DNA from: Aequorivita vitellina
GTDB lineage: Bacteria > Bacteroidota > Bacteroidia > Flavobacteriales > Flavobacteriaceae
Length of the DNA stretch: 64,000 nucleotides
Assembly (NCBI RefSeq): GCF_022008365.1
Contig: NZ_JAIRBA010000016.1
Span: 1 to 64,000 of the forward strand
Reading direction: 5' to 3'
The position numbers were made by a program, and so were the translations under genes. Each line of letters opens with the position of its first letter. Position 1 is the stretch's first letter. Shown in pieces: positions 21,301 to 50,242 of the stretch. The notes beneath the pieces were generated by a model, which was not told where the DNA came from, ran no database searches, and worked only from the letters and a program-made list of their open reading frames with translations.

Positions 21301-21821
21301 TAAACTCTCTCAGCATAAACCAAATAATAACGGGGTATAATTCTTCGAAGCATTGGACGAATACCTATTTTATTCACCGGGTTGGTAAATTTCTCGCTTT
21401 TTACAATTCGCCAGCCCGCTTTTTCGAGTAGCCAATCAAATTGCCAAGCTTCAAATTCGTGATAGTGGCGATCCCATTTGTCGGTTTTACTTCTGTATGC
21501 CGGTGCAAACCAAAGTTTTAATGGAACAGATGCAACCAGTTTTTTTGCTTGAATATCTTTTAGCACGTTAAAAGGAGCGACCAAATGCTCAAAAATTTCG
21601 AAAGCGGTTACTACATCAAAATTGTTTGTTTTTACTACTTCAGTTTTAAGGTCTAGATCTTCGCCTTTGGTATTTGTTACATTGTAACCTTCCTTCGAAA
21701 GTATTTCAGAAAAAGGGTTTGAAACCCCTAAATCAAGAATTTTTTCTTCTTTAGAAATTACTTCGTTTAAAAAACTGAGAGTATGCTTATATCTTTTTTT
21801 GGGAAACCTAGCTTCGTACAT
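21300..21821 (-). CDS. Class I SAM-dependent methyltransferase
   Basis: A 173-residue small Rossmann methyltransferase. Motif I appears as EKILDLGVSNPFSE (about 28-41), and the later FDVVTAFEIFEHLVAPFNVLKDI is the methyltransf_11/23 motif around the catalytic pocket. The substrate is not known; the immediate downstream glycosyltransferase suggests a role in glycan synthesis. Its first 55 codons are duplicated at 23381-23546, the same distance from the start codon in both copies. Confidence 0.82.
   Translation of the reverse strand: MYEARFPKKRYKHTLSFLNEVISKEEKILDLGVSNPFSEILSKEGYNVTNTKGEDLDLKTEVVKTNNFDVVTAFEIFEHLVAPFNVLKDIQAKKLVASVPLKLWFAPAYRSKTDKWDRHYHEFEAWQFDWLLEKAGWRIVKSEKFTNPVNKIGIRPMLRRIIPRYYLVYAERV
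21656..21821 (-). repeat. 166-bp direct repeat, copy A (5' end of methyltransferase)
   Basis: From the ATG to the GATCTTCGCC word, this segment matches 23381-23546 along the same 166 bases without a gap, with scattered substitutions (encoding MYE-x-FPKKRY-x-HTLSFLNE in both). The central 60 bases or so are essentially identical. Confidence 0.85.
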
Positions 21822-21893
21822 TTTCTTAATTGAAAAATTCGTGATTTATTAATGGATATATATCAAATACTGAATTATATTAATAATGTTTTT

Positions 21894-23303: not shown

Positions 23304-23546
23304 TTATATGGGTTTGATTTCAGAATTTGCTAAAATCTCTACGTTTAATATGTTGTAATTTTGATTTTTAGTTAAATAAAGATCTTCGCCTTTCGGGTTT
23401 GTTACGTTAAAGTCTATTCCGGTAATAATTTCAGAAAAAGGGTTTGAAACCCCTAAATCAAGAATTTTTTCTTCTTTAGAAATTACTTCGTTTAGAAAAC
23501 TGAGGGTGTGGTTGTATCTTTTCTTTGGGAACTTGCCTTCGTACAT
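23304..23546 (-). pseudogene. Truncated duplicate of the methyltransferase
   Basis: An 80-codon frame whose first about 55 residues nearly equal those of the methyltransferase at 21300-21821 (MYEGKFPKKRYNHTLSFLNE; EKILDLGVSNPFSEI). After the KGEDL word the sequence drifts (NQNYNILNVEILANSEIKPI) and stops, so motif II onward is lost and it cannot be an active enzyme. It ends 10 bases before the lipoprotein start. Best read as a decayed partial duplicate; translation of the short product is possible. Confidence 0.8.
23381..23546 (-). repeat. 166-bp direct repeat, copy B
   Basis: Counterpart of 21656-21821, with the same end points relative to the start codon. The pair brackets about 1.56 kb containing the lipoprotein gene. 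Confidence 0.85.
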
Positions 23547-23587
23547 TTCTTTAATTCAGAATTCAGAAATTATAATTCTGAATTATT

Positions 23588-29629: not shown

Positions 29630-31075
29630 ATGAAAAAATTTACTTCAGGAATTTTAATGTTCCTTTTATTTACAATTGTTGGTTTTGCACAAAACGACAA
29701 TACTTTTTATGCAACAATGGACGCTGCAGATGCGGTTTCATTTAAAGCACTCTACCCAGATGGAATGACCATTTTGGCAAGCAATGACAAACAAGCTGCG
29801 GTTATACTTTCTGAAGAAGTTTCGCACAGTATTCACGACAACGTAAAAACCCACGGACCGGGTTATATTTTTAGAGCATCGGCCCAAAAAGCTATTCAGG
29901 CCTTAGAACCTGTTGAGCGCAGAAGTCCGCAAATAGATTACAGTATTACCGAAGATGCCTTTGTAAACGAGTGCTTAGATTTAGTTGATGGCCAAAATAT
30001 TGAAGACGATATTTTAAATCTTCAAAATTACGGTACGCGTTACCATACAAAATCGCAAGCAGAGATGGCAGTCCTCGATCAACAAGCCAAGTGGGATGCT
30101 ATGATTGCCGCGTCTGGCAGAACCGATGTGCACACCCGTATTTTTACGCACGTAAACACGCCAATGCCTTCTGTAATTATAACTTTTGACGGTGCTAATA
30201 CGCCAGATGAATTTGTAATTATTGGCGGACATATAGATTCTACAACTTTTGGAGACAAGAATAATGCGCCTGGGGCAGATGATAATGCTTCGGGAATTGC
30301 GTCTTTAAATGAAATGGTGCGTGTGCTTTTAGAAAAGAATTTTGTACCAAATAGAAGTATAGAAGTGATGGCTTTTGCCGCCGAAGAAATTGGTTTGGTA
30401 GGTTCTGCCGAAATAGCCGAAGAATACGCTAACAACGGTGTAAATGTAGCCGCTTATGTACAATTTGATATGACCGGTTATAACGGCTCTAGTAGTGATA
30501 TTAACTTAACTACAGATTGGTATAACAGCAGTGAGTTAAACGATTATTTGGCCGCGCTAATGGATCATTACAACAGCTCGGGAGCTCATAGTTTTACCTA
30601 TGGTTACACAGAATGTGGCTACGGATGTTCAGACCACGCAAGTTGGGCAGATAATGGCTACGATGCTGCATTCCCATTTGAAGCTAGAATGGGTGAAGAC
30701 AATCCGAATATTCACAGCCCGGGTGATGTTTATTCGTTTTTTAACACACCAGACCACAGTGTAAAATTCGCAAAACTTGGACTTGAATTTTTAATTGAAG
30801 CTGCTAAGCCACAAATCCTTTCGGTTGATGATTTTTCTGAAAATGCTATTCGTGTTTTTGTAAATGACAAAACTTTAAATTACCGATTAAACAATACGGT
30901 TTCAAACGTAAAAGAAGTAGTTGTTTACAACGTAGCGGGACAAAGAATAATTTCTGAAAAAGTAAATGCTGAAAGTGGAAGTCTTCAACTAAGCCAATTT
31001 GCACAAGGTTTTTACATTGTACATTTTGCTTTGGAAAACGGACATACGTTTTCAAAGAAGTTTATATTGAACTAG
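29630..31075 (+). CDS. M28 family zinc aminopeptidase with T9SS C-terminal sorting domain
   Basis: A 481-residue exported peptidase. Signal peptide MKKFTSGILMFLLFTIVGFAQ. The M28 metal ligands are visible: GGHIDS (His/Asp), GADDNASGIASL (bridging Asp), FAAEEIGLVGS (Glu-Glu) and YGCSDHASWADNGYDAAF. The C-terminal about 80 residues (VFVNDKTLNYRLNN...VYNVAGQRIISEKV...GFYIVHFALENGHTFSKKFILN) are a type A T9SS sorting domain, so it is probable cargo of the PorU/PorV system. Start ATG 29630 is preferred over 29588 because the signal peptide begins there and a weak -7 element (TATTTTTA) lies at about 29593-29600. Confidence 0.93.
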   Translation: MKKFTSGILMFLLFTIVGFAQNDNTFYATMDAADAVSFKALYPDGMTILASNDKQAAVILSEEVSHSIHDNVKTHGPGYIFRASAQKAIQALEPVERRSPQIDYSITEDAFVNECLDLVDGQNIEDDILNLQNYGTRYHTKSQAEMAVLDQQAKWDAMIAASGRTDVHTRIFTHVNTPMPSVIITFDGANTPDEFVIIGGHIDSTTFGDKNNAPGADDNASGIASLNEMVRVLLEKNFVPNRSIEVMAFAAEEIGLVGSAEIAEEYANNGVNVAAYVQFDMTGYNGSSSDINLTTDWYNSSELNDYLAALMDHYNSSGAHSFTYGYTECGYGCSDHASWADNGYDAAFPFEARMGEDNPNIHSPGDVYSFFNTPDHSVKFAKLGLEFLIEAAKPQILSVDDFSENAIRVFVNDKTLNYRLNNTVSNVKEVVVYNVAGQRIISEKVNAESGSLQLSQFAQGFYIVHFALENGHTFSKKFILN

Positions 31076-31156
31076 TGTCCAGTCGAGCACAATCGAGCCT
31101 TACTTTTTAATCATAATTAGGTTGAAAAGATGACCTCTCGACTGCGCTCGAGGTGA
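31075..31156 (+). repeat. Paired dispersed repeats (GTCGAG...CTCGAC type)
   Basis: CAGTCGAGCACAATCGAG near 31080-31097 and TGACCTCTCGACTGCGCTCGAGGTGAC at 31130-31156 are inverted copies of one short word. The same kind of pair occurs at 33877-33958 and 44102-44176. Confidence 0.7.
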
Positions 31157-31166
31157 CATTTGGAAT

Positions 31167-31223: not shown

Positions 31224-33266
31224 TTATACTAATCCAGCTCTTTTTAAAAGTGCTTCGGGGTCTGGTTTCTGTCCTCGGAATTTAATGTAAAGTTCCATTG
31301 GGTCAAGGGTGCCACCCTGCGAAAGCACAAACCCTTTAAAGCGATCTGCTATTTTTTTGTTGAAAATACCTTCTTGTTTAAACAATGCAAAAGCATCTGC
31401 GTCCAGCACCTCAGCCCATTTATAACTGTAATACCCTGCCGAATATCCACCTTGAAAAATATGTGAAAATGAAGTACTCATACAATTTTCCCTTACATCT
31501 GGGTAAAGTTGGGTGTCGTTAAATGCAGCAAGTTCAAAAGCTTTTACTTCTTTTATTCCCGAAGGGTCCTGGCCGTGCCAAGCCATATCTAGCAAGCCAA
31601 AGCTCAATTGGCGCAAAGTTGCCATTCCTTCCAAAAAGGTGGCGGATTCCTTTATTTTTTCAACGTATTCCATCGGGATAACTTCGCCCGTTTTGTAGTG
31701 CGTGGCGAAGAGTTCCAGCGTTTCTTTTTCATAACACCAGTTTTCCAAAATCTGGCTCGGCAATTCTACGAAGTCCCAATAGACGTTAGTTCCCGAAAGG
31801 CTGGGGTAGTGGGTGTTTGCCAGCATTCCGTGTAGGGCGTGACCAAATTCGTGGAATAATGTAGTTACTTCATTAAAAGTTAAAAGAGAAGGTTTACTAG
31901 CCGTAGGTCCTTCGACTCCGCTCAGGACAGGCTTCGTGAAATTACAAACGATTGAAATATGCGGACGGTCATTTTTCCCGTCCTTAATTTGTTGTGGTTT
32001 GTACGAAGTCATCCAAGCGCCATTCCGTTTCCCAGCACGCGGGTGGAAGTCTGCGTAAAGGATGGCGACCAATTGGCCTTCGTCGTCTTTTACTTCGTAG
32101 GTTTTTACGTCGGGGTGATATTTATCGATGTCGTGCACTTCTTCAAAATGAAGTCCGTATAATTTTTCAGCCACCGTGAAAACGCCATTAATAACATTTT
32201 TTAATTCGAAATAAGGCTTTAACTTTTCATCGTCGAGGTTGAAAAGTTTCTGTTTTAATTTTTCTGAATAATAAGCGCCGTCCCATTTTTCCAAATGATC
32301 GATACCGTCTAATTCTTCGGCAAAAGCAGTTAATTCTGCAAACTCTTTTTGAGCGGCTGGTTTTGCCTTTTCGAGTAATTCATTTAAAAACAACTTAACT
32401 TTTTCAGGAGTTTCGGCCATTCGCTCTTCCAAAACGAAATGCGCATGACTTTTATAACCCAATAAATGCGCACGTTTATGGCGAAGTTTTACAATCTGAA
32501 GTACATTTTGTTGGTTGTCTAAAGCGTCATTATGAAAACCTTTTGCTCCAAAGGCAATCGCCATTTTTTTGCGCAACTCGCGATTGTTGGCGTAGGTTAA
32601 AAAGGGAACGTAGCTTGGGTAATCCAAAGTGAAGACCCATCCCTCTTTTTCTTTTTCTCCGGCAGTTTGTGCAGCGGCTTCAATAACGCCTTCGGGTAAA
32701 CCGGAAAGATCTTCTTTATTTGTAATATGAAGCTCGAATTTGTTGGTTTCTGCTAAAACATTTTCACCAAAAGTAAGTTTCAATTTTGAAAGCTCTGCAT
32801 CAATTTTACGCAGTTCTGTTTTCTTTTCTTCAGAAAGATTGGCGCCGTTTCGCGAAAAAGCTTTGTACTTTTTATCAAGCAGCATTTGCTGTTCTTCGGA
32901 AAGATTTAATGAATCCTTTTGATTGTAAACTGTTTTTATTCTTTCAAACAACGCTTCGTTTAACAACATATCGTTGCTGAACTCCGTAAGCATAGGCGAA
33001 ATTTCCTGCGCTATTTTCTGAATTTCATCATTGGTTTCTGCACTGTTTAAATTGAAGAAAATACTCGTTGCGCGATCTAATTGCTCGCCTGTATTTTCCA
33101 AAGCTTCTACTGTATTTTTAAAAGTAGCAGGTTCAGGATTTGAAGTTATAGCATCGATTTCGCCTCTGGTTTTTTCAATCAGCTGACTTATTGCAGGGAG
33201 GAAATGTGCATTTTCAATTTTTGAAAAAGGGGCTGTGTTGTAGGGTTGTAATAGGGGATTGTTCAT
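31224..33266 (-). CDS. dcp: M3 family peptidyl-dipeptidase / oligopeptidase
   Basis: A 680-residue zinc metallopeptidase of the thimet-oligopeptidase family (Dcp/PrlC type), with no signal peptide, so probably cytoplasmic peptide turnover. The zinc motif HEFGHALHGM is at about 472-481, preceded by LLTFNEVTTLF; C-terminal GGYSAGYYSYKWAEVLDADAF is the substrate-binding loop with the conserved Tyr residues. Just before the zinc motif, residues 446-454 (PVLSGVEGP) are encoded by an in-frame copy of a dispersed palindromic repeat and look like an insertion relative to the family's CNFTKP-to-KPSLLTF spacing. The frame is open throughout. Confidence 0.92.
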   Translation of the reverse strand: MNNPLLQPYNTAPFSKIENAHFLPAISQLIEKTRGEIDAITSNPEPATFKNTVEALENTGEQLDRATSIFFNLNSAETNDEIQKIAQEISPMLTEFSNDMLLNEALFERIKTVYNQKDSLNLSEEQQMLLDKKYKAFSRNGANLSEEKKTELRKIDAELSKLKLTFGENVLAETNKFELHITNKEDLSGLPEGVIEAAAQTAGEKEKEGWVFTLDYPSYVPFLTYANNRELRKKMAIAFGAKGFHNDALDNQQNVLQIVKLRHKRAHLLGYKSHAHFVLEERMAETPEKVKLFLNELLEKAKPAAQKEFAELTAFAEELDGIDHLEKWDGAYYSEKLKQKLFNLDDEKLKPYFELKNVINGVFTVAEKLYGLHFEEVHDIDKYHPDVKTYEVKDDEGQLVAILYADFHPRAGKRNGAWMTSYKPQQIKDGKNDRPHISIVCNFTKPVLSGVEGPTASKPSLLTFNEVTTLFHEFGHALHGMLANTHYPSLSGTNVYWDFVELPSQILENWCYEKETLELFATHYKTGEVIPMEYVEKIKESATFLEGMATLRQLSFGLLDMAWHGQDPSGIKEVKAFELAAFNDTQLYPDVRENCMSTSFSHIFQGGYSAGYYSYKWAEVLDADAFALFKQEGIFNKKIADRFKGFVLSQGGTLDPMELYIKFRGQKPDPEALLKRAGLV
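31906..31931 (-). repeat. Dispersed palindromic repeat inserted in frame in the M3 peptidase
   Basis: The plus strand reads GGTCCTTCGACTCCGCTCAG followed by GACAGG; the core CCTTCGACTxCGCTCAGG matches the intergenic copy at 48850-48868 (CCCTGAGCGCAGTCGAAGGG) in inverse orientation. The 26 bases keep the reading frame and encode PVLSGVEGP. Confidence 0.85.
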
Positions 33267-33368: not shown

Positions 33369-33854
33369 CTATTTGTTTAATTCTTTTGAAGCTGATTCAA
33401 CTTTAACCTTCAATTCTTCCTTGTAGGCTATAATTCTGTCCAGTACCGCTTTATCTGAAGACCCAATAATCTGTGCGGCAAGAATTCCTGCGTTTTTGGC
33501 GCCATTTAATGCTACGGTTGCAACAGGAACGCCGCCGGGCATTTGGAGAATGGAAAGTACGCTGTCCCAGCCGTCAATGGAGTTGCTGGATTTTACGGGC
33601 ACGCCAATTACCGGTAGAGGCGAAAGCGAAGCAATCATCCCTGGTAGATGTGCCGCGCCGCCTGCGCCCGCAATAATTACCGAAAAACCACGCGTATGGG
33701 CATTTTTTCCGTAATCAAAAAGTTTATCGGGGGTTCGGTGGGCAGAGACGATGTCTATTTCAACCTCTATGTTAAATTCTTTTAAAATATCCACAGCGTC
33801 TTGCATTACTGGCAGATCGCTGGTACTTCCCATTATTATTGCTACTTTGTTCAT
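33369..33854 (-). CDS. purE: N5-carboxyaminoimidazole ribonucleotide mutase
   Basis: Converts N5-CAIR, made by PurK, to CAIR in purine synthesis (class I PurE). The 161-residue protein has MGSTSDLPVM (about 8-17), the SAHRTPDKLFDY motif with the catalytic His, and AGAGGAAHLPGM; LPVIGVPV follows. Length is normal. It lies downstream of purK on the same strand, 104 bases away, separated by a pair of dispersed repeats. Confidence 0.96.
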   Translation of the reverse strand: MNKVAIIMGSTSDLPVMQDAVDILKEFNIEVEIDIVSAHRTPDKLFDYGKNAHTRGFSVIIAGAGGAAHLPGMIASLSPLPVIGVPVKSSNSIDGWDSVLSILQMPGGVPVATVALNGAKNAGILAAQIIGSSDKAVLDRIIAYKEELKVKVESASKELNK

Positions 33855-33876
33855 TTGTTTTTATTTTCGTTTGTCT

Positions 33877-33958
33877 GGTCGAGCGCAGTCGAGACCTACT
33901 TATTAAGACAATTTTTTTTCCTTTATATTGACCTCTCGACTGCACTCGAGGGGACACC
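33877..33958 (-). repeat. Paired dispersed repeats between purK and purE
   Basis: GGTCGAGCGCAGTCGAGACC (33877-33896, itself a palindrome) and TGACCTCTCGACTGCACTCGAGGGGACACC (33929-33958). The second copy abuts the purK stop at 33959. The pair could form a long hairpin across about 30 bases of AT-rich DNA. Confidence 0.75.
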
Positions 33959-35113
33959 TTATTTACTAATTACCTCTATCGTCTTTTTAACCTCCTCCGC
34001 AATTTTTCGTGCTACATTCAGGTCTTTGTTTACTATGGTTACGTGGCCCATTTTTCTGAAAGGGCGAGTTTCTTTTTTACCGTAAATGTGGGGTGTAACG
34101 CCTTCCATTGCTAGAATTTTTTCTATGTTTTTATATACCACTTGACCCGTGTGGGCTTCGGCGCCAACTAAGTTTACCATTATGCCGCCCACTTTGCTGT
34201 CGGTATTTCCTAAGGGTAAATCTAGGATTGCCCGTATTTGCTGCTCAAATTGGTTGGTAAAACTAGCTTCAATGCTGTAATGCCCGCTGTTATGTGGACG
34301 CGGGGCTACTTCGTTTACAAGAATTTCGTCGTCTTCGGTTTGAAATAATTCAACCGCTAAAAGGCCTACGTGTTTAAAAGCTTCGGAAACTTTGGTGGCT
34401 ACGGCTCTCGCTTTATTTGCAACGGCTTCGTCTATTCTTGCGGGACAGATTACATATTCCACTTGATTTGCTTCGGGGTGAAATTCCATTTCTACTACCG
34501 GATAAGTAATTACGTCTCCCGATGGATTTCGAGCTACAATAACGGCCAATTCATTTTTAAAGGGAATTAATTTTTCAGCAATACAGGCGCCTTCCGAAAG
34601 TGGAATTACATCTTCGGCACTGCGAATAATACTTACGCCTTTACCGTCGTACCCGCCGATGCAACTTTTCCACACAAAAGGAAAGTGTAGCTCTTTGCGA
34701 ACTATGGCTTCGTTTAAATCGTTTTTATCTTTGTAAACTTTAAAAGGCGAAGTAGGAATTTGGTGCTCTTTATAAAACTGTTTTTGAACCCCTTTATCCT
34801 GAATATTTCGGAGTGTTGCTGCGCTGGGATATACTTTTACACCTTCGTTTTCTAACTTTTCCAAAGCTTCCACATTTACGCCTTCAATTTCAAAGGTAAG
34901 TACATCTACCTTTTTTCCGAAGTTGTAAACCGTTTCAAAATCCATTAGGTCGCCTACTTCAAAATTCTCTGTGGCAATGCGGCACGGTGCTTCGGGGCTG
35001 GGGTCGAGGACGTTGGTGCGGATGTCCCATTTACGGGTTTCGTAGAGCATCATTTTGCCCAACTGGCCGCCGCCTAAAATGCCAAGCGTGAAATTAGTGG
35101 AAAAGTAGTTCAT
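33959..35113 (-). CDS. purK: N5-carboxyaminoimidazole ribonucleotide synthase
   Basis: ATP-grasp enzyme that carboxylates AIR with bicarbonate to give N5-CAIR, the substrate of PurE. The 384 residues start with GILGGGQLGKMM (about 11-22) and contain the ATP-grasp elements FVWKSCIGGYDGKGV, AEKLIPFKNELAVIVARN, and the metal-binding VNEVAPRPHNSGHYSIEA. Length is normal. The two-gene order purK-purE supports the assignment. A -7 promoter element is 39 bases upstream. Confidence 0.96.
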   Translation of the reverse strand: MNYFSTNFTLGILGGGQLGKMMLYETRKWDIRTNVLDPSPEAPCRIATENFEVGDLMDFETVYNFGKKVDVLTFEIEGVNVEALEKLENEGVKVYPSAATLRNIQDKGVQKQFYKEHQIPTSPFKVYKDKNDLNEAIVRKELHFPFVWKSCIGGYDGKGVSIIRSAEDVIPLSEGACIAEKLIPFKNELAVIVARNPSGDVITYPVVEMEFHPEANQVEYVICPARIDEAVANKARAVATKVSEAFKHVGLLAVELFQTEDDEILVNEVAPRPHNSGHYSIEASFTNQFEQQIRAILDLPLGNTDSKVGGIMVNLVGAEAHTGQVVYKNIEKILAMEGVTPHIYGKKETRPFRKMGHVTIVNKDLNVARKIAEEVKKTIEVISK

Positions 35114-43093: not shown

Positions 43094-44092
43094 GTGACTG
43101 AAGGCAATTTTGTAGATTACGTTAAGGTTCATGTTACTTCCGGAAAGGGAGGGCAAGGCAGTAAACACATGCGACGGGAAAAATATATCCCTAAAGGTGG
43201 TCCCGATGGTGGTGATGGTGGTCGTGGCGGACACGTAATTGTAAAAGCCAATAAAAATCTTTGGACGCTTTACCACTTAAAATTTAAAAGACATTATAAG
43301 GCCGAACACGGTAGTGCAGGTAGTAAACAAACCAGCACAGGTGCCGATGGTGCCGATGTGTATATTGAAGTGCCACTGGGTACTGTTGTTCGCGATAAGG
43401 AAACCGAAGAGATACTCTTTGAACTCACCGAAGATGGCGAAGAAAAAGTTGTGGCTCAAGGAGGTCGTGGCGGATTGGGCAATGCACACTTTAAATCTTC
43501 AACTAACCAAACGCCCCGGTATGCACAACCCGGTGAAGAAGGGGAAGAAGTAGATATTATTTTAGAATTAAAAATACTTGCAGATGTGGGATTAGTAGGA
43601 TTTCCAAATGCTGGAAAATCTACTTTGCTTTCGGTTATTACTGCGGCAAAACCTAAAATTGCCAATTATGAATTTACGACACTAAAACCCAATTTGGGAA
43701 TCGTGGAATACCGCGATTTTCAAACATTTGTAGTTGCCGATATTCCCGGAATTATTGAAGGTGCTGCCGAAGGAAAAGGCATCGGGCATCGTTTTTTACG
43801 GCATATTGAACGTAATTCAACATTGTTGTTTTTAATTCCAGCCGATGCGCCAGATATTAAAGAACAATACGAAATTTTAGTTGACGAATTGCGTCGTTAC
43901 AACCCACAACTTTTAGACAAGGAACGCTTAGTGGCCATCAGTAAAAGCGATATGCTAGACGATGAGTTAAAAGCCGAAATGAAAAAGATTCTTGATAAAG
44001 AATTTAAGGATATTCCGTATTTGTTTATTTCTTCTGTTGCGCATCAAGGTTTAACAGAGCTTAAGGACAAGCTTTGGGCAATGTTGAACTAG
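43094..44092 (+). CDS. obg: GTPase Obg (CgtA)
   Basis: Essential GTPase for large ribosomal subunit maturation and stress response. The 332-residue protein has the glycine-rich Obg domain ([19 protein letters not shown], then [14 protein letters not shown]) and the G domain with [12 protein letters not shown] (G1), [16 protein letters not shown] (G3) and SKSD (G4). The C-terminal OCT domain is absent, as usual in Bacteroidetes. The start is GTG at 43094, which gives the family's [14 protein letters not shown]-terminus. Confidence 0.96.
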
Positions 44093-44481
44093 AACAAATG
44101 TCAGGTCGAGCGCAGTCGAGACCTCTTCTTATTTTAAATCTGACAGATAATATTCCCTCGATTGTGCTCGGGGAGACGACTTCGGTTTTCTCAAAACTTC
44201 TTAACTTTCATTCAATTTAGAAATACCTTTTCTCGCTGCTTTACAATTTCGTTTTATAAATAATTCATATAAGTGATTGAATTATAGTGTGGTTACACTT
44301 CAATTCTTGTGTTGATGTTTCTTTTCAAATCAAAATTCCATAATTCCAACAACCAATTTTAGCCATTCACATCATTTAAGTCCAACGAGGGTGTTGTTCC
44401 GTTAATTTAGTGGATGTAAAAATACCTGATCAGTGTTTACAAGTTTAACAAACAAGTTATAAACCCTTAAAATTATCAGTT
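44093..44481. other. 389-base intergenic region with paired repeats
   Basis: Contains the dispersed repeat pair AGGTCGAGCGCAGTCGAGACCT (about 44103-44124) and CCCTCGATTGTGCTCGGGGAGA (44155-44176), followed by about 300 bases of AT-rich sequence up to the next gene. No promoter of the TAnnTTTG type or gene was recognised there. Confidence 0.6.
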
Positions 44482-45033
44482 ATGAAAACTTTAATTATTT
44501 CTATTATTTTTATTTTGACCGCTACGGTACTCAGTGCTCAAGAAGTTACCGTTTTAGATGAAGCTAGACTGTTTTACGCTCCGCTCAATGTTGTAATAAC
44601 CCAAGACGGCGACAGTTATGTATATAATATTAAAGAAAGCCAAAGTCGCCAATTTGCTCGCGACCCCATTGGTTTTATGAAAGCTAATTTTGATATTCAA
44701 AGCTTTATCACCCATACGGCAGACAAAAAATATCACGCCTATTTGGTAACGTTTAAAAGTTCAAACGGATCTTTGGAGGCAGATTTTGACAGCAAAGGCA
44801 GGCTGCTAGAAACTCGTCAGCAATTTAAAAATGTGATTTTACCAGCAAACCTCAGAAGCGATGTGCACAAAGCCTACCAGGGATATACTTTAACTAAAAC
44901 CAAATATACTGCCCGCACCAAAGGGGAAATATTGGCCAATGCCAAATATAAAATTCGTCTTGAAAATGGAAAAGACAAACAGCACCTAAAAATTGACGCT
45001 ATAAGTAGCGGCGTTGGCGTGGCCGTTAATTGA
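44482..45033 (+). CDS. Secreted protein of unknown function
   Basis: A 183-residue protein with a signal peptide (MKTLIISIIFILTATVLSAQ). The middle part HAYLVTFKSSNGSLEADFDSKGRL, with 'lV.F....G...a.FD..G.L', resembles PepSY-like beta repeats found in Bacteroidetes secreted proteins. No enzyme motif was seen. It is followed by a clear terminator, so it is a single-gene unit. Confidence 0.7.
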   Translation: MKTLIISIIFILTATVLSAQEVTVLDEARLFYAPLNVVITQDGDSYVYNIKESQSRQFARDPIGFMKANFDIQSFITHTADKKYHAYLVTFKSSNGSLEADFDSKGRLLETRQQFKNVILPANLRSDVHKAYQGYTLTKTKYTARTKGEILANAKYKIRLENGKDKQHLKIDAISSGVGVAVN

Positions 45034-48788: not shown

Positions 48789-48843
48789 TTCTGAAATATG
48801 AATCTTGAATTCAGCATTAGAAAAAGTATCTTTACAAAACGAA

Positions 48844-48871
48844 TGTCACCCTGAGCGCAGTCGAAGGGTTA
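48844..48871 (+). repeat. Dispersed palindromic repeat upstream of mpl
   Basis: TGTCACCCTGAGCGCAGTCG plus AAGGGTTA contains the same CCTGAGCG-AGTCGAAGG core as the in-frame copy in the M3 peptidase. Confidence 0.75.
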
Positions 48872-48886
48872 AATATTAAACCCCAC

Positions 48887-50242
48887 ATGAGAATCCATTT
48901 TATAGCTATAGGCGGTAGCGCGATGCACAATCTTGCATTGGCACTACATCAAAAAGGAGATACGGTAACCGGAAGCGATGACGAGATATTTGAACCCTCC
49001 AAAAGTAGATTAAATAAGAAAGGGTTACTGCCCGAAAAAGAAGGCTGGTTTCCCGAAAAATTGAATTCTGAAATTGATGCAGTTATCCTCGGAATGCACG
49101 CCAAAGCAGATAATCCCGAACTGGTAAAAGCGAAGGAGCTCGGGTTAAAAATCTACAGCTACCCCGAATTTCTTTACGAACAATCCAAAACGAAAACCCG
49201 TGTGGTAATTGGTGGTTCCCACGGAAAAACTACAATTACTTCTATGATTCTTCACGTGATGAATTATCACGAAAAAGATGTGGATTATATGGTTGGTGCT
49301 CAATTGGAAGGGTTTGACACCATGGTGAAAATTACAGATGACAACGATTTTATGGTTATTGAAGGCGATGAATATCTGTCTTCGCCCATAGACCGCAGAC
49401 CAAAATTTCACCTTTACAAACCGAACATTGCCTTGTTGAGTGGTATTGCTTGGGATCACATTAACGTTTTTCCAACTTATGAAAACTACGTGGAGCAGTT
49501 TGAAATTTTTCTAAAGGAAATTACCAACGGCGGCGCAATAATTTACAACGAAGAGGACGCAGAAGTTAAACGAGTAGTGGAAGCAGCAACAAACCCAATT
49601 AAGAAATATCCGTACCAAACTCCCGAATATACAGTTGAAAACGGAACTACGCTACTAGAAACTCCCGAAGGCCCAATGCCTATTGAAATCTTTGGAAAAC
49701 ACAATTTAAACAACCTAGAAGGCGCTCGATGGATCTGCCAATTGATGGGCATAGATGCCGATGATTTTTACGAAGCCATCGCCACATTTAAAGGCGCGAG
49801 TAAACGATTAGAAAAAATTGCCGAAACCAAAACTGCGGTAGCGTATAAAGATTACGCACATTCGCCCAGCAAAGTAAAAGCCACTACGCAAGCCGTAAAA
49901 AACCAATACCCAAATAGAAAATTGATAGCCTGTTTGGAGTTACATACCTACAGCAGCCTAAATCCTGACTTTTTAAAAGAATACAAAGGAACGCTCGATG
50001 CAGCCGATAGCGCAGTAGTATTTTACTCACCCCATGCGGTAATGATAAAACAGCTCGACGAAATAAAAAGGGAGCAAATAGAGGAGGCCTTTGACCGTGA
50101 TGACTTGGTAGTTTTCACAAACCCGGCAGATTTTAAAACCTACCTTTTTTCGCAGGATTATGACGATACTTGCTTGCTTTTAATGAGTAGTGGTAATTAC
50201 GGAGGATTAAATTTTGAAGAGGTAAAGGAGTATTTAAAATAG
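48887..50242 (+). CDS. mpl: UDP-N-acetylmuramate:L-alanyl-gamma-D-glutamyl-meso-diaminopimelate ligase
   Basis: Recycles cell wall by ligating the released tripeptide to UDP-MurNAc in the cytoplasm. The 451-residue Mur-ligase protein starts MRIHFIAIGGSAMHNLALAL, the GGSAMH word being typical for Mpl rather than MurC, and has the ATP motif VIGGSHGKTTITS, EGDEYLSSPIDRRPKF and the C-terminal KDYAHSPSKVKATT. Length is normal. A dispersed repeat sits just upstream. Confidence 0.94.
   Translation: MRIHFIAIGGSAMHNLALALHQKGDTVTGSDDEIFEPSKSRLNKKGLLPEKEGWFPEKLNSEIDAVILGMHAKADNPELVKAKELGLKIYSYPEFLYEQSKTKTRVVIGGSHGKTTITSMILHVMNYHEKDVDYMVGAQLEGFDTMVKITDDNDFMVIEGDEYLSSPIDRRPKFHLYKPNIALLSGIAWDHINVFPTYENYVEQFEIFLKEITNGGAIIYNEEDAEVKRVVEAATNPIKKYPYQTPEYTVENGTTLLETPEGPMPIEIFGKHNLNNLEGARWICQLMGIDADDFYEAIATFKGASKRLEKIAETKTAVAYKDYAHSPSKVKATTQAVKNQYPNRKLIACLELHTYSSLNPDFLKEYKGTLDAADSAVVFYSPHAVMIKQLDEIKREQIEEAFDRDDLVVFTNPADFKTYLFSQDYDDTCLLLMSSGNYGGLNFEEVKEYLK

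Follow-up and report, generated by a model that had tools for sequence, protein, structure and literature searches.

The window, a 64,000-nt stretch of an Aequorivita vitellina contig, carries a peptidase gene in which a short palindrome is translated in frame, shortly before the zinc motif. Palindromes that code for protein are known above all from Rickettsia and Wolbachia. How did such an element enter this coding sequence, and does it belong to a family that has entered other genes as well?

An in-frame palindrome in an M3 peptidase gene

The features at this locus were the following.

31224..33266, minus strand: gene that carries the insert; its 680-aa product is an M3 peptidase of the Dcp / oligopeptidase A type, recognized by Pfam and PDB matches
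~31908..31931, minus strand: 24-bp in-frame palindromic insert, codons 446-453 (PVLSGVEG), delimited by a gap in homologues
31912..31923, minus strand: repeat core in M3, GAGCGGAGTCGA, matching the 91 genome copies of GAGCGNAGTCGA
31839..31853, minus strand: HEFGH zinc motif, residues 472-476, from the translation; the columns H472, E473, F474, G475 and H476 are invariant

The product matched Peptidase_M3 (PF01432, E 2.8e-139) in Pfam and Dcp (1y79, E 4.3e-137) in the PDB, and the closest genes came from Aequorivita records, with 90% and 88% identity. The dN/dS was ~0.03 both against G160 and against G156, with dS near saturation. These ratios, which cover the host gene and not the insert, point to a gene under constraint.

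At the insert the protein reads KPVLSGVEGPTASK. The first-pass annotation had described PVLSGVEGP, residues 446-454, as the translation of a 26-base palindrome inserted in frame. The residues and the in-frame palindromic nature held, the lengths did not: the coding span (31905-31931) has 27 bases, and measured against homologues with an empty site the insert comprises eight residues or 24 bp (446-453), not nine residues. A unit of 24 bp adds eight codons to M3 and keeps the phase. Because CCT is found at both ends, the placement of the edges is ambiguous by up to 3 bases, and an alternative reading of the insert is TGTCCTGAGCGGAGTCGAAGGACC after AAGCC. The HEFGH motif begins at residue 472, 18 residues past the insert, as previously noted.

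In the AlphaFold model (60 sequences, mean pLDDT 93.6), residues 450-455 were the sole segment of three or more residues with a pLDDT <50. They cover the last residues of the insert plus the two that follow it, are placed between the strands 436-440 and 456-458, and precede the helix 464-481, which bears HEFGH. The model thus supports the earlier suggestion of a loop that tolerates extra residues.

The alignment proposed at the outset gave a clean 8-residue gap at CNFTKP/TASKPSLLTF in homologues, and the same gap was found in PDB Dcp 1y79 and oligopeptidase A 4ka8. Within the genus, orthologues were obtained as 27 loci from 28 genomes (the G164 locus was partial, and G165 yielded a paralogue only). 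The insert was absent from 25 of these 27 loci, the window counted in. The second bearer, G163, has PVLSAAEG, encoded by 24 bases at the same codon and with the same orientation, length and frame. Named records supplied 80 homologous loci, two of them titled Aequorivita, and 79 of the 80 had no insert of such size; among the 78 not so titled, 77 were without it. The exception was Mariniflexile maritimum (L048), with its own 24-base sister palindrome after the same KP, encoding the eight residues VLSVTKGS. No consistent target duplication was found: CCT flanks the insert in the window, and the Mariniflexile insert shows no such ends.

Near the M3 site, G152 had three extra non-palindromic residues and L108 one extra residue, so this site varies in other ways too. 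Elsewhere in M3, around residues 561-573, G152 (L200) had a 39-bp in-frame palindrome consisting of one repeat nested within another. G171 and G173 (L192, L195) carried a 20-residue insert with ATACCCGCCTCCGCGGGTAT, a further in-frame palindrome type, and G172 an insert at the same place as these two, without an evident palindrome.

A dispersed repeat family

In the window, CCTTCGACTCCGCTCAGG lies at 31909-31926 and has a twin at 48850-48867, which differs by one base, at the N of the core. At up to 3 mismatches these were the only two matches in the window, and shuffled sequences gave an expectation of 0.01. The twin and three pairs of related palindromes are intergenic:

48842..48868, plus strand: single copy of the TGTCACCCTGAGCGCAGTCGAAGGGT type, just before the ORF at 48887
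31076..31158, unstranded: inverted-palindrome pair directly behind the ORF that ends at 31075, repeat families D6/D7
33872..33956, unstranded: inverted-palindrome pair between the ORFs 33369-33854 and 33959-35113
44099..44178, unstranded: inverted-palindrome pair between the ORF ending at 44092 and the ORF starting at 44482

The first-pass annotation had placed a second core at about 48850, which was recovered, and related words at 31080-31156, 33877-33958 and 44102-44176. These words are real and form inverted pairs between ORFs; three of the six arms are 1-2 bases off the core. The window also has a 134-nt direct repeat (21703-21836 and 23428-23561, 89% identity), touching two nearby minus-strand ORFs.

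The genome-wide search asked for by the same annotation showed a dispersed repeat with some copies within genes. In the host genome (3.63 Mb, 197 contigs), the 12-base core GAGCGNAGTCGA occurred 91 times, 47 and 44 times per strand, and the 18-mer nine times; the reversed controls of both gave 0 matches. TGTC preceded the core by up to 9 nt in 62 of the 91 copies, namely in 60 of the 67 with N=C and in 2 of the 24 others, one of which is the M3 copy. Neither GTAG nor CGTC was found as a tag within the 9 nt upstream of any of the 91 cores. An outer stem encloses the core, with a mean of 4.15 pairs compared to 2.57 with shuffled partners (the top mean of 200 shuffles was 2.93). It had 4 or 5 pairs in 76 of the 91 copies (counted up to 6 pairs), and its pairings varied (ACC/GGT, AGG/CCT, ACAC/GTG and so on). 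The 12-nt core inside it forms at most a weak inner stem. By a crude test, CCA followed within 8 bases of the core in 13 of the 91 copies.

Counting strict cores of this genome and neighbours within 120 bp, 61 copies were single; the nearest neighbour shared the strand of the copy in 16 cases and was on the opposite one in 14. Many inverted pairs were found in two Flavobacteriaceae genomes of one genus. An apparent one-sided orientation relative to replication in two genomes proved, in the full listings, to be an artefact of row order, and a replication-strand bias was rejected.

All 28 genus genomes contained the core, with 6-125 copies each (reversed pattern 0-2). Beyond the genus, TGAGCGNAGTCGAAG was found in 83 of 296 Bacteroidota genomes, the reversed pattern having one match in each of six. 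Of 149 genomes sampled from the family, 14 contained a 20-base version, and none contained its reverse. Runs of TGTCAGG(G/C)TGAGCGCAGTCGA with a constant GTCTAAC flank, 16 copies, were found on contigs C115, C141, C146 and C152 of G000 (L027, L030, L157, L159, L164). On C141 they are in places 57-73 bp apart, beside an ORF that, as an impression, resembles a Wzc-type kinase. We considered integron-like arrays for these 16 copies and rejected them, as the 130 bases scanned upstream had no GTTRRRY motif. Further, 24 stretches of viral contigs (L328-L351), which may be phage or host DNA, contained TGTCCTGAGCGNAGTCGAAGG.

Copies inside other genes

Of the 91 cores, 20 lay within ORFs of at least 100 aa in which an ATG precedes the core; hemW holds a further copy. 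The hemW copy fails the ATG rule and was added by hand, and the count covers no ATG-less stop-to-stop frames. Fifteen copies were in frame and interior to 13 genes supported by Pfam: purL (three copies), M3, hsdS, an A2M-type gene, gltX, metG, GH92, mnmA, an acrB-type gene, methylmalonyl-CoA mutase, mutL, an M28 peptidase and hemW. The Pfam scans leave out a core-bearing 971-aa ORF (L167) and the 534-aa ORF of L133. Copies at the extreme ends of a paaA-type gene, holA and arginase were left uncounted because starts and stops may be misplaced.

Compared with homologues, seven of nine in-gene copies coincided with extra residues at the core. At M3 and two PurL sites this was seen against close relatives; for MetG, MnmA, GH92 and HemW the comparison was with distant PDB homologues only, which is weaker proof. 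GltX and the M28 peptidase had no clear extra residues at the core, meaning that a core inside a gene need not be an insertion. Where N is not C, cores were more often inside these 13 genes (9/24, compared to 6/67 with N=C; Fisher p 0.003).

The 24-base unit is open in five of its six frames, making it translatable in most orientations. Read by hand, four frames were used in genes: VLSxVEG, ERSR, PSTxL and FDSAQ. The repeat would explain stray peptides such as VLSGVEG, PSTSLRTG and FDSAQD in annotated proteins.

Outside the genus, four copies of the 20-base version were in long ORFs, and all three that were scanned had Pfam support: a DHODH, an A2M-type protein and an HsdS (near the N-terminus). 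The DHODH of G088 had seven extra residues compared to the E. coli enzyme.

Probable recurrent insertion at the same codons

A tree was built from M3, metG and purL of 26 of the 28 genomes (G164 and G165 left out; these are the genes whose inserts are counted, and sparsely filled columns were removed). The window grouped with G160 and G163 with G167, each with support of 100/100, and neither G160 nor G167 had the M3 insert. A single clade of the window and G163 was rejected (p-AU 0.0003 for the concatenated genes, 0.005 for M3 alone). As the bearers are not sisters and each stands beside an insert-free species, insertion at this codon has most likely recurred. The absence from the sister species, together with recurrence elsewhere, supports the earlier view that the repeat spread recently; the repeated use of the same codons and the other host genes go beyond it.

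The least number of changes on the tree, which are changes and not gains, was 2 for the M3 site, 3 and 6 for the PurL sites and 5 for the nested insert in MetG. By eye, metG had some palindrome at about residue 516 in 23 of 26 genomes and none in three. It was of the core type in 18 genomes (three of them decayed), of the GAGCTTGTCGAAG type in four, and in the opposite orientation in G163. A second repeat was nested in the first in six genomes, requiring at least five changes. PurL has a pair of sites, at about residues 303 and 376. The state of site 1 could be read in 19 genomes and that of site 2 in 18; among the tree genomes, seven loci were incomplete or disrupted, and G155 gave no readable state at site 2. 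Site 1 was occupied in 6 of 19 genomes, with three changes, and site 2 in 6 of 18, by three different palindromes and with six changes. The purL of G163 (L255) has stops in frame as read and a separate 5' piece, which may reflect a frameshift, an assembly error or an insertion. The hot spots in metG and purL resemble that of M3, with several palindrome types, some of them nested.

Together, these results make it probable that the element is a small REP-like, non-autonomous palindromic repeat, dispersed in the genus, that inserts in frame into tolerant loops and does so repeatedly at the same places. Its unit would usually consist of a TGTC tag followed by a short hairpin whose core is conserved and whose outer stem covaries, and it may have spread through the genus and other Bacteroidota by moving as a DNA hairpin, via a transposase-like or single-strand process. 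Copies in genes would persist where the protein accepts a longer loop, and the insert would be neutral for the protein. Other palindromes, too, would share the targets M3 after CNFTK, MetG at ~516 and PurL at ~303 and ~376, and we suppose that these hot spots arise from tolerance and not from target choice.

A bolder claim would be that, in Bacteroidota, a phase-neutral hairpin and at least two other palindrome families re-insert at the same few codons of core enzymes (M3, MetG, PurL), also within the loops of earlier hairpins and independently of Y1 transposases, because they are directed to these sites and not just filtered by selection. We put this forward tentatively, its chance appearing to us somewhat below even.

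It is unlikely that M3 received a single ancestral insertion which most lineages lost precisely and of which the two bearers are remnants. Such an insertion would account for the codon, length, orientation and frame shared by both bearers, and the single-strand transposases of IS200/IS605 elements are capable of precise excision. However, losses would be required in both sister species and in most other lineages, compared to two changes if the insert was gained twice. Moreover, the inserts of the window and G163 differ in sequence, and Mariniflexile has yet another sequence at this codon.

The in-gene repeats could also have been retained for a useful peptide or an mRNA hairpin with a regulatory or structural role. 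The nearly filled metG site and the several core enzymes among the hosts would fit with this. The same sites are, however, filled by differing frames, orientations and sequences, most genomes have nothing at the M3 and PurL sites, and the M3 insert is modelled as a low-confidence loop, so that we regard a retained function as quite improbable.

That the lineage of the window and that of G163 exchanged the M3 segment horizontally is, in our view, very improbable. One insertion would then explain the shared site, but the flanks (60-600 bp) were not unusually alike, G163 ranking 16th or 17th of 25 in likeness to the window, and the shared stretch would have to be shorter than 60 bp. The tree of M3 alone also leaves each bearer with its own sister. 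Gene conversion of the segment was rejected in the same way, with no signal in the flanks. Chance similarity, with the M3 stretch being ordinary coding sequence, could draw on the in-gene cores that align without a gap (GltX, M28), but is refuted by the 18-base match, the empty reversed control and the clean 24-bp gap.

Apart from the empty site, this genus has core genes in which single codons bear several insertions, apparently independent of each other, as well as nested ones. With empty, filled and nested sites at hand, repeat movement and the gain of protein loops become directly testable.

Relation to known palindromic repeats

The first-pass annotation had likened the element to the palindromes of Rickettsia. 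The likeness holds for behaviour and not for size, the M3 unit having 24 bp compared to the 100-150 bp of RPEs, of which one RPE-4 has 84 bp (available part of PMC3767692). Like RPE-1 to RPE-7 and the Wolbachia palindromes, as far as the accessible descriptions of these go, the repeat has entered otherwise conserved genes in frame, as judged from extra residues at M3, PurL, MetG, MnmA, GH92 and HemW, which GltX and M28 do not clearly show. Besides the in-frame palindromes of Rickettsia, intragenic REPs are on record from several phyla (PMC3733652, PMC3767692). Unlike the RPEs, which occur in obligate intracellular hosts, it belongs to Bacteroidota, and the two are likened by behaviour and not by sequence. 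According to the portion available, RPE hosts include a tRNA synthetase and a polymerase, and different RPE groups lie near each other in orthologues (PMC3767692). Whether RPE-4, RPE-6 and RPE-7 mark a hot spot or one diverged insertion is left undecided there, with a leaning to common origin. Here, in contrast, the M3 and PurL sites are unoccupied in the majority of the genus genomes, which allows recurrence to be counted. If the site-directed reading is true, it would settle this question for the genus.

Further parallels were seen with the CGTC-tagged REPs, to which RPE-4 and RPE-6 have been assigned. In the part of PMC3733652 (Di Nocera 2013) available, these have an unpaired end tag (TGTC being a listed variant), a short hairpin, intragenic copies and no dedicated transposase, and occur in five phyla, Bacteroidetes included. 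The TGTC tag (62/91), the hairpin, the intragenic copies, the want of a transposase tied to the repeat and the presence in Bacteroidetes are shared. As described there, the CGTC-tagged REPs differ in a stem of 8-9 pairs with a loop of 4-5 bases, where our outer stem mostly has 4-5 pairs, and in a 3-base unpaired tail, mostly CCA, where we found CCA in 13 of 91 copies, no constant tail, and the core GAGCGNAGTCGA. The same source reports different REPs at about the same site of recB orthologues in Xanthomonas. That is one example; here, tree-based counts of changes are available for M3, for MetG and for both PurL sites.

With the GTAG REPs and REPINs (RAYT, TnpA-REP), the repeat shares dispersed hairpins, tens to about a hundred copies and some inverted pairs. 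It differs in having GTAG in 0 of 91 copies, and in Y1 genes without a flanking repeat, bar a possible case (L282). MITEs are 70-300 bp long, end in inverted repeats like those of IS elements and duplicate their target; here the M3 unit has 24 bp and there is no consistent duplication.

The repeat is not described in the available text of PMC3733652, PMC3767692, PMC6006769 or PMC12306157, the last of which includes two Flavobacterium genomes in the accessible part of its table. In the open-licence literature searched, peptides of the VLSGVEG/VLSEVEG type and 15-16-base words of the repeat gave no match, and no title matching the 12-base core concerns repeats. Likewise, for REPs of Flavobacter-, Bacteroidetes or Aequorivita, none of the titles and abstract beginnings in this literature names the repeat.

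Search for a mobilizing enzyme

The likely route of spread is single-stranded hairpin movement, as proposed for REPs, with a putative enzyme. Y1 transposases were considered as mobilizers and rejected, as their numbers were unrelated to copy numbers and their flanks were without the repeat. Across the 28 genomes, the number of Y1_Tnp genes did not follow the number of copies (rho 0.09, p 0.64), and the nine genomes without Y1_Tnp contained 6-91 copies. The core was found within the fetched flanks of 4 of 31 Y1 loci, three of these being, by position, the metG copy; the single locus with a core nearby elsewhere, L282, is a possible association. The three Y1_Tnp genes of the window's genome had other repeats or none in their flanks.

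Several Y1 loci had their own hairpins. GTCCC...GGGAC hairpins surrounded the gene in L175 / L040 (G000:C128), L271, L288, L272, L276 and L273, and in L175 they formed an array of TGTCCCGTTAGGGACA...ATATCGGTA with a period of ~50 bp. By its YIxNQxxHH motif, the L175 protein would resemble Y1 subclass 1.2. In the available part of PMC6006769, this subclass is listed without such flanking structures, and some Bacteroidetes Y1 subclasses have atypical ones. A RAYT-like Y1 gene in L042 (G000:C124, ~258-814) had GGCGCGAGCGTCCCGCTCGTGC-type hairpins on both sides, and L285 and L294 had similar words; these hairpins are a different family from the core repeat. G156 had three equal-scoring Y1_Tnp genes in a row within 2.2 kb (G156:C1:116037-118199).
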